NCBI RefSeq assembly: GCF_900537085.1
Contig: NZ_UNRE01000010.1
Span: 1-64,000, forward strand
Direction: 5' to 3'
Origin: Agarivorans sp. Alg241-V36
Lineage (GTDB): Bacteria; Pseudomonadota; Gammaproteobacteria; Enterobacterales; Celerinatantimonadaceae
DNA: 64,000 nt
A model generated the notes under the pieces. It saw only the letters and a program-made list of their open reading frames with translations, made no database searches and was not told the DNA's origin. The position numbers and the translations under genes were made by a program. Numbering within the stretch: the stretch's first letter is position 1; each line of letters begins with the position of its first letter. This document shows positions 61,691 to 63,490 of the stretch, in pieces.

Positions 61691-61791
61691 TGTCACCGAT
61701 TTGGTGATACTAACAATCCAGCTTACTCCGTATTCGAAGGGATACTATGAGTGGCTACTTTCACGTTTGTGATTATCACAAACACATGTGT
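61691..61791 (+). promoter_or_regulatory. Structured rplM-rpsI mRNA leader
   Basis: The leader holds a hairpin TGTCACC/GGTGATA (61691-61709, one G-U pair) and a perfect eight-base hairpin GTTTGTGA-TTA-TCACAAAC (61765-61783), followed by the palindrome ACACATGTGT (61782-61791). In E. coli, L13 represses its own operon through the rplM leader. These structures are good candidates for that site. Confidence 0.5.
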
Positions 61792-61818
61792 AACAGTTAT
61801 TTTGGGTTATATATACAA

Positions 61819-62247
61819 ATGAAAACTTTTGTAGCCAAGCCAGACAGCGTTAAACGCGACTGGTACGTTGTAGATGCAGATGGTAAAACTCTGGGTCGTA
61901 TCGCAACTGAAATCGCTTCTCGCCTACGCGGTAAGCATAAAGCTGAATATACTCCTCACGTTGATACTGGTGATTACATCATCGTAATTAACGCTGAGAA
62001 AGTAGCCGTAACAGGCAACAAAGCGAAAGGTAAAATTTACCACTCGCACACTGGTTACCCAGGTGGCTTAAAATCAATTAGCTTTGAAAAGTTAATCGAA
62101 AAAGCTCCTGAGCGTGTTATCCAGTCTGCAGTGAAAGGTATGTTGCCAAAAGGTCCTCTAGGCCGTGCAATGTTCCGTAAACTGAAAGTATTCGCTGGAC
62201 CTGAGCACACTCATGCGGCTCAGCAACCACAAGTATTAGACATTTAA
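61819..62247 (+). CDS. rplM: 50S ribosomal protein L13
   Basis: Ribosomal protein L13 of 142 residues, identical in length to E. coli, beginning [23 protein letters not shown] 61819 is chosen on homology although its ribosome-binding site is weak. The frame stays open to an ATG at 61747 that has a good Shine-Dalgarno (AAGGG, 61738-61742) and would add 24 residues. rpsI follows after 17 bp. Confidence 0.97.
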
Positions 62248-62264
62248 GTTACGGAATTTGAATA

Positions 62265-62657
62265 ATGGCTGAGAATCAATACTACGGCACTGGCCGTCGC
62301 AAAAGCTCTACTGCTCGCGTATTTTTAAAAGCAGGTAGTGGTAACATCACTGTAAACAACCGCACTCTGGACGTTTACTTTGGCCGTGAAACTGCTCGTA
62401 TGGTAGTTCGTCAACCACTTGAACTAACTGAATTGTTAGAAAAAGTTGACCTACTAGTTACCGTTAAAGGTGGTGGTACAACTGGTCAAGCTGGTGCTAT
62501 CCGTCACGGTATCACTCGTGCTCTTATGGAATACGACGAAAGTCTACGTCCTGAGCTACGTAAAGCTGGTTTCGTTACCCGTGATGCGCGTAAAGTTGAG
62601 CGTAAGAAAGTTGGTCTACGTAAAGCACGTCGTCGTCCGCAATTCTCTAAACGTTAA
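62265..62657 (+). CDS. rpsI: 30S ribosomal protein S9
   Basis: Ribosomal protein S9 of 130 residues, beginning [20 protein letters not shown] and ending in the conserved RRRPQFSKR tail that reaches the P-site tRNA. It is co-transcribed with rplM. A terminator follows at 62682. Confidence 0.98.
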
Positions 62658-62681
62658 TTGCTATACACATTCGTGTTACAA

Positions 62682-62712
62682 AAAAGCTCGGCTATGCCGG
62701 GCTTTTCTTTAT
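62682..62712 (+). terminator. rplM-rpsI terminator
   Basis: AAAAGCTCGGC / GCCGGGCTTTT around TAT (one G-U pair), followed by CTTTATT. It separates the ribosomal operon from the pet operon. Confidence 0.88.
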
Positions 62713-62740
62713 TCTAAAAGGTTAAAAACCTTGATTTCCC

Positions 62741-62769
62741 TTGTCAATTTGTGTGTTTTTTATTACTAT
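62741..62769 (+). promoter_or_regulatory. Candidate petABC promoter
   Basis: TTGTCA (62741-62746) and TACTAT (62764-62769) are separated by 17 bases. Transcription would begin near 62777, giving a leader of about 120 nt. Confidence 0.45.
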
Positions 62770-62796
62770 TTTGTTCGCATTTACCTGCAATAATGT

Positions 62797-62836
62797 AGTA
62801 GCAAGTAAACGCTACCAGTAGCAGAAAAACGCTACC
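62797..62836 (+). repeat. Two tandem 20-bp palindromic repeats upstream of petA
   Basis: The interrupted palindrome GTAGC-N8-GCTAC occurs twice, at 62798-62815 and 62818-62835, in direct repeats of the frame AGTAGCA...AAACGCTACC with a period of 20 bp, about two helical turns. They lie downstream of the candidate promoter in the petA leader. They may be an operator for a regulator bound as two dimers, or two small RNA hairpins. Confidence 0.5.
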
Positions 62837-62899
62837 TTGTGCAGCATGCCGCAAGGAAAATTACAATAATTGCGCGGATCCTTACCGGAGAGACATTGG

Positions 62900-63490
62900 A
62901 TGAGCAACGCTCCTGTCGATGCTGGCCGCCGTCGCTTCCTAACCTGGACAACAGCTGTTGTCGGTGGTGTAGGAGCAACGTTTGCCGCAGTACCTTTTAT
63001 CAGTTCATGGAATCCGAGTGCCAAAGCTAAAGCAGCTGGAGCACCGGTAGAAGTGGATATTAGCAAAATAGAGCCTGGACAATTACTACGTGTTGAATGG
63101 CGTGGTAAACCTGTTTGGGTGGTTAACCGTCCTCAGTCGGTTCTCGATAACTTAGACACCATTGGTGATAGGTTACGTGACCCTGAATCTGAGGAGCCTC
63201 AGCAACCCGATTATACAGTCAACGTACATCGCTCAATTAAACCTGAGTTGTTTGTGGGTGTGGGCTTGTGTACTCACCTTGGCTGTTCACCCACTTACTT
63301 ACCTGGCAGCTTTGCTGAGCAAGTACAAGGTGTTGAATATGGATTTTTCTGTCCTTGTCATGGTTCGAAGTTTGATATGGCCGGACGAGTATTCCAAAGT
63401 GTACCAGCACCACTAAACTTGGTTGTTCCTCCACATCACTATGTTGATGAAACCACCATTTTGGTCGGCTTGGACCAGGGAGAGGCATAA
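62900..63490 (+). CDS. petA: Ubiquinol-cytochrome c reductase Rieske iron-sulfur subunit
   Basis: Rieske protein of the cytochrome bc1 complex, 196 residues. It has a twin-arginine signal anchor (RRRFLTW, Arg10-Arg12, followed by one membrane helix). The cluster ligands are CTHLGC (Cys124, His126, Cys129 as disulfide) and CPCHG (Cys151, Cys153 as disulfide, His154). ATG 62900 is used because GGAGAGA precedes it. The frame extends ten codons further without a better signal. petB starts one base after the stop. Confidence 0.97.
   Translation: MSNAPVDAGRRRFLTWTTAVVGGVGATFAAVPFISSWNPSAKAKAAGAPVEVDISKIEPGQLLRVEWRGKPVWVVNRPQSVLDNLDTIGDRLRDPESEEPQQPDYTVNVHRSIKPELFVGVGLCTHLGCSPTYLPGSFAEQVQGVEYGFFCPCHGSKFDMAGRVFQSVPAPLNLVVPPHHYVDETTILVGLDQGEA

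Follow-up and report, generated by a model that had tools for sequence, protein, structure and literature searches.

Tandem palindromes in the petABC leader of Agarivorans are most likely RNA hairpins rather than a DNA operator

Two copies of an interrupted palindrome lie upstream of petA in a 64,000-nucleotide stretch of the Agarivorans sp. Alg241-V36 genome, the whole of which we call the window. On the sequence comparisons presented here, they are best explained as a genus-specific duplication within the 5' untranslated leader of petABC. An earlier, sequence-only reading had proposed a DNA site for two protein dimers controlling respiration, with consecutive RNA hairpins as the alternative. 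The operator is not supported by our analysis, and RNA hairpins in a regulated leader are the most likely form of the element; we infer that the palindromes, if they have a function, act as RNA and not as DNA. We observe a pair of repeats, a conserved promoter, a leader that is nearly frozen, a distribution limited to the genus and no other sites outside open reading frames (ORFs). The favoured reading, to which we give a probability of about 0.4, joins to these a transcription start, a fold, binding of a small RNA (sRNA) and of Hfq, and an iron signal that we infer. That is, the twin hairpins would belong to a post-transcriptional petABC leader that is most likely an sRNA target, perhaps with Hfq, and serves iron sparing.

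The motif GTAGC-N8-GCTAC occurs in two exact copies with a start-to-start period of 20 bp, which confirms the tandem arrangement and period read earlier from the sequence. Copy 1 (GTAGC-AAGTAAAC-GCTAC) occupies 62798-62815 and copy 2 (GTAGC-AGAAAAAC-GCTAC) 62818-62835; both, like the promoter, the terminator-like hairpin, the predicted stems and petA placed below, are on the forward strand. The span first given for the pair, 62797-62836, does contain it but takes in one extra base on each side. A third copy is absent from the 64-kb window (0.06 matches expected by chance per window), and only 1 of 100 shuffled windows held at least two matches. The 19-bp units of the two palindromes share 16 of 19 positions; their three differences fall at unit positions 7-9, in the spacer. 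Such identity, with the differences confined to the spacer, looks like the tandem duplication of a palindromic unit and not like two independent chance matches.

A minimal start-stop, ATG-TAG, is found at 62793-62798, at the foot of hairpin 1. It has no evident Shine-Dalgarno site and is invariant in the genus. In G009, a genome of the sister genus g4, an ATGTAG lies within the palindrome GCTACATGTAGC, and G007 (g2) has none in the last 130 nt.

The gene order in this part of the window is rplM, rpsI, then petA and petB (names from sequence). A terminator-like hairpin (62682-62706) follows rpsI and precedes a sigma-70-type promoter, TTGTCA-17-TACTAT, at 62741-62769, with the transcription start expected near 62776. 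The petA gene, named from its sequence and relatives as the Rieske Fe-S subunit of the bc1 complex (196 aa), runs from 62900 to 63490 behind a presumed Shine-Dalgarno site, GGAG, at 62887-62890. The palindromes are therefore placed, as had been described, in the petA leader between promoter and gene. The promoter candidate named in the sequence-only reading also held up: the scan matched nothing else in 62600-63000, where shuffles would give 0.4, and promoters of its class are conserved. Of 105 distinct petA upstream regions, 63 contain TTGTNA-N17-TANNAT, with the box starting at a median of 143 nt ahead of the ATG (range 115-199), and 81 contain the looser CTTGT-N18-21-TANNAT; dinucleotide shuffles give 0.4 and 1.0, respectively. 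These regions come from 110 petA loci (30 + 80), from which five with identical upstream DNA were dropped; the named loci include Aeromonas, Vibrio, Shewanella, Oceanimonas and Pseudoalteromonas, near relatives may be missing, and petA starts were chosen by script, so that individual rows are possibly off. Taken together, scan and conserved class make a petABC promoter at 62741-62769 well supported. Since this promoter lies upstream of the palindromes, they are probably transcribed, at about +22 to +60 from the expected start.

The leader, 62776-62899, hardly varies. Across seven genomes of the genus (seven species), 4 of its 124 columns are variable; the corresponding counts are 1 of 42 for the promoter stretch, 15 of 76 for the DNA from rpsI to the promoter and 116 of 197 for petA third codon positions. 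When the whole window was compared by blastn with stretches of four relatives (G003-G006), 219 of 63,877 segments of 124 nt reached the leader's 120/124 invariant columns. Segments with at least 120 such columns form only two clusters, 62077-62326 (rplM-rpsI) and 62738-62952; in 64 kb, the conservation of the leader is matched only by the neighbouring ribosomal-protein genes. Conservation of the pair in close relatives, whose lack had been named as a refutation, was indeed found in all seven congeneric genomes, both units being letter-for-letter unchanged in six and copy 1 damaged in the seventh (G003). All four leader changes belong to G003: C62784T, A62792T, T62813A and A62817T. Of these, T62813A disrupts copy 1 in its right arm and is uncompensated; copy 2 is intact in 7/7. 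The stretch 62818-62928, which has copy 2 inside and reaches the tenth petA codon, is invariant in the genus, and the 3' half of the leader is more constrained than copy 1. Even constraint of this kind, running into the first petA codons, fits a function in the mRNA better than an operator. Within petA, the part that does not vary in the seven species is 62900-62928, nine full codons plus two bases of codon 10, and the start region is predicted to self-pair.

The same pattern can be read as one in which the palindromes are passengers. The leader would then be constrained by translation initiation, by an sRNA pairing site or by its conserved 3' half, and the palindromes would be a tolerated duplication in the 5' half. 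The variable columns do all fall at 62784-62817 in one genome, the uncompensated arm break among them, with everything from 62818 to 62928 invariant; moreover, the other genomes of the family do without the pair, and the leader folds no better than ordinary against shuffles (see below). However, six of the seven genomes keep both units exactly while petA third positions vary as widely as they do, and copy 2 sits within the invariant stretch, so that we consider a mere passenger possible but rather unlikely.

In the operator reading, two dimers of a regulator would bind one DNA face shortly after the start and act as a roadblock that represses petABC. The perfect inverted repeats with their 20-bp period suit this, as do the retention of the pair in all seven congeneric genomes (one with a mismatch) and the g4 palindrome GCTACATGTAGC at about the equivalent place. 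In addition, forward matches in the genome exceed backward-pattern controls, with 9 versus 3 for GTAGC-N8-GCTAC and 6 versus 0 for the central palindrome GCTAC-N2-GTAGC (GCTACNNGTAGC). Yet the genome search for GTAGC-N8-GCTAC as a regulon site returned no match outside ORFs besides the petA pair, which accounts for two of the nine places. An ORF covers each of the other seven; six of these ORFs have 206-499 codons, and the seventh, of 88 codons, sits in a row of plausible genes, also looks coding and resembles a small membrane protein. A 2-mismatch search with the 19-mer adds two places in the genome, both inside ORFs, and the five other places of GCTACNNGTAGC are inside ORFs as well. A covering ORF alone proves little, because one of these has 88 codons and an 84-codon antisense ORF covers the window's own palindrome site. 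That all other genome matches lie inside ORFs speaks against a regulon operator. Further against it, the constraint does not single out the palindromes, the leader being conserved almost end to end with its four variable columns in or near copy 1, and the pair is absent from the other five family genomes. Without recurrence upstream of other genes, the proposal of a DNA operator for a respiration regulator is not supported, and we regard a roadblock of this type as unlikely; an operator with a single target is possible. A frozen leader with its own promoter, and no site outside ORFs, is better accommodated by an mRNA element.

Searches with the leader as a whole returned little. The genome holds no second copy of it, the matches besides itself being seven of 14-20 bases (E 0.9-6.2), and a search of 61700-63000 against Rfam gave 11 matches up to E 10, none above about half its gathering score or slightly more. 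One named operator type was also considered. OxyR tetrads consist of several inverted half-sites in a row with a spacing of about 11 bp. The half-sites at petA are likewise inverted and serial but are spaced by 13 bp and 7 bp in alternation, and an OxyR tetrad operator was rejected on this ground. In S. oneidensis, loss of OxyR is reported not to have changed pet promoter activity significantly (PMC5307378).

Outside the genus, the palindrome pair is rare. A search for the tandem pair with at most 2 mismatches covered 394 genomes of the order (7 of the genus, 5 others of the family and 382 from the rest). The pair was found at petA in 7/7 genomes of the genus (G003 with one mismatch), in none of the five other family genomes and in 3 of the remaining 382, each time with 2 mismatches and unlike spacers; its backward control matched in 1 of 394. 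Conservation of the pair in the petA upstream regions of related genera, which had been put forward as a check, is thus not borne out. PetA was detected in 43 of the 60 genomes of the relatives search and in 10 of 12 in the family (own genome counted), and had no match in the two g3 genomes. Three of the five other family genomes keep petA with a similar promoter yet without the pair. Instead of the pair, the sister genus g4 (G009, G011) has the palindrome GCTACATGTAGC together with a long predicted hairpin, and g2 (G007) has neither arrangement; CCGCAAGGA and GCGGATCCTTA(C/A)CGGAGA before petA are common to g1, g2 and g4. Shewanella petA leaders examined by eye lack the palindrome pair; we take Shewanella oneidensis to be a gammaproteobacterium of the same broad order as the organism of the window.

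Folding predictions give substance to the alternative of two consecutive RNA hairpins, both of which are predicted at 0.82-0.97 over nine 3' ends. Hairpins 1 and 2 reach mean pair probabilities of 0.84-0.97 and 0.82-0.88 over these ends, and a third hairpin, CUUGUG...CGCAAG (62836-62855), whose sequence is largely kept in the sister genus g4, reaches 0.93-0.99. A closing stem, P1, is predicted to join 62784-62797 to 62862-62877, with pair probabilities of 0.72-0.95 except for one of 0.31; its four core pairs average 0.58-0.95 over the nine 3' ends (prediction only). The 3' strand of P1 contains AAUAAU (62865-62870), about where many relatives carry (AAN)3-4 runs. In G003, hairpin 1 drops to a probability of 0.27-0.35 and P1 stays at 0.76-0.99. 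The four changes of that genome translate, in the predicted fold, into one gain for P1 (A62792T adds a pair), one possible U-G pair (C62784T, unused in the G003 minimum-energy folds), one break of hairpin 1 and one unpaired position.

Against its shuffles, the leader has no clear advantage in stability: z is -0.56 for 62776-62920 and -0.97 in a second run, 68 of 400 shuffles equalled or exceeded its stability, and the entropy of 80 of 400 was equal or lower. Among 46 chosen representative leaders the mean z is -0.69, with three at -2 or below. No covariation supporting the leader fold, the proof that comparison would give, was found, because the genus hardly varies and the sister genera are too different. 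RNAalifold on G000, G003 and G009 draws both hairpins (consensus -23.7, two of the three rows being from the genus). With the g2 leader (G007) added, the value is -10.6 and the palindromes are unpaired, which argues against a family-wide fold. On these predictions, the twin hairpins are likely to form in the leader RNA. A two-conformer RNA switch, suggested by one minimum-energy fold, was rejected: whichever of the nine 3' ends is chosen, the alternative has a probability of at most 0.15, for G000 as well as for G003.

Hairpins at the 5' end of an mRNA can shield it from decay by the RppH/RNase E mechanism. The twin hairpins might do only this, near the start and with no regulator. The distance from the expected start to the predicted hairpins is some 20 nt, and for several other genera different hairpins are predicted in the corresponding half of the leader. 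Shielding would, on the other hand, leave the frozen loops, linkers and 3' half unexplained, and the 5' part is only slightly better folded than shuffles (mean z -0.67 over 46 leaders); we consider it improbable as the sole function.

Hairpins were also noticed in other petA leaders. In those of Vibrionaceae (for example L031, L064 and L065), a GCUC...GAGC stem is visible by eye; it encloses a loop rich in A and U, directly precedes the Shine-Dalgarno site and in L064 has A-U in place of one U-A pair. RNAalifold on 23 chosen Vibrionaceae 3' leaders gave no structure. The leaders of Idiomarina and Pseudidiomarina (L082, L098) have a hairpin immediately before the Shine-Dalgarno site with arms CUUCGCGG/CCGUGAAG against CUUCACAG/CUGUGAAG, different sequences that match all the same and so look like covariation.

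Returning to control by a small RNA, part of the argument comes from the 3' half of petA leaders at large. Runs of at least three AAN triplets occur in 39 of 97 distinct petA leaders (examples are L031, L065, L019 and L027) versus 10.3 +- 2.8 in shuffles, and at least four A-R-N triplets in a row in 21 of 97 versus 6.1 +- 2.3, an enrichment that is overstated because related genomes are not independent. The AAN run starts 34-49 nt before the ATG in 36 of the 39. Hfq is reported to bind A-R-N repeats, which often lie close to the Shine-Dalgarno site (PMC4104026, PMC10920880), and the AAN runs are possibly this distal-face motif, that is, candidate Hfq sites. The window's own leader has at most two AAN triplets in a row, below the three-triplet criterion for the Hfq ARN motif. 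It also carries GGA motifs, for which CsrA control was considered.

The other part comes from two precedents, the only work from our literature searches for a published petA leader element that seemed pertinent. In Neisseria meningitidis, the Fur-controlled sRNA NrrF is reported to repress petABC via the 5' UTR, independently of Hfq (PMC5586341). In S. oneidensis, the expression values given for petA, petB and petC are down by log2 1.0-1.1 in a fur mutant, up by 0.9-1.0 when a ryhB deletion is added to the fur mutant and down by 1.2-1.4 upon RyhB overexpression (PMC5826389). Four targets in S. oneidensis are reported to depend on Hfq for the decay of their mRNA, and petABC is not among them. 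These precedents for control of petABC after transcription, together with the AAN runs, lead us to favour an sRNA-controlled, iron-sparing leader in which Hfq is possible. Our confidence is lowered because the action of NrrF is reported to be Hfq-independent and because the U-G pair left by C62784T is possible but not predicted.

In this favoured mechanism, the palindromes would act, if at all, as RNA within a leader of about 62776-62899. Two 5-bp stem-loops with A-rich 8-nt loops would adjoin the third hairpin, and the long-range stem would close the set upstream of the Shine-Dalgarno site, the twin hairpins forming a local 5' domain. The whole leader would set translation and decay of the petABC mRNA and, as the target of a small RNA, perhaps with Hfq, would allow the iron-rich bc1 complex to be turned down at iron shortage.

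A RyhB partner was sought in the genus. None of its seven genomes has RyhB above the cut-off (150 of 1678-1941 candidates scored per genome); in the controls, E. coli scored above it and 14 control genomes gave one match above and three below. No CATTGC core lies within 200 nt of the best-scoring matches (loci L131-L134). The RyhB core 19-mer, searched with up to 3 mismatches, gave only 3-mismatch matches in 5 of 7 genomes (not G000), and backward controls match too. One sub-threshold RyhB match, L137 (G000:C4:25866-25920; 24.7 bits versus a cut-off of 55), has CATTGCTCAG and GACATTGCTTTGCTCA followed by a terminator-like hairpin; it is a candidate small RNA that, judged by eye, may lie where an ORF ends.

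A more speculative version, to which we give very little credence, makes the twin hairpins a genus-peculiar two-site dock at which bc1 synthesis would be set in response to iron-sulfur or redox state, the sensor being either a dimeric RNA-binding protein or a small RNA dedicated to the task. If true, the petA leader would be an undescribed class of respiratory mRNA leader, made of a conserved promoter, lineage-specific 5' hairpins and an AAN-rich 3' half, with the sensing half swapped between genera and the output half kept. Given a conservation that only the neighbouring ribosomal-protein genes equal in these 64 kb, and reports from two other bacteria that an iron-sparing sRNA targets petABC, this leader offers a concrete place for testing post-transcriptional control of bc1 in these bacteria.

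Among the most similar known systems, NrrF-petABC of Neisseria meningitidis concerns the same operon and post-transcriptional control in the petA 5' UTR. It differs in belonging to another proteobacterial class, in its reported independence of Hfq and in that the available text describes no tandem hairpins. RyhB-petABC of S. oneidensis (PMC5826389) shares the operon and the iron-sparing logic; there, however, petABC was identified as a transcriptomic target, and the genus of the window has no RyhB above the cut-off. Finally, mRNA leaders with Hfq ARN motifs resemble the petA leaders of many relatives in having runs of A-rich triplets shortly ahead of the Shine-Dalgarno site, whereas the window has only AAUAAU, inside a predicted stem.
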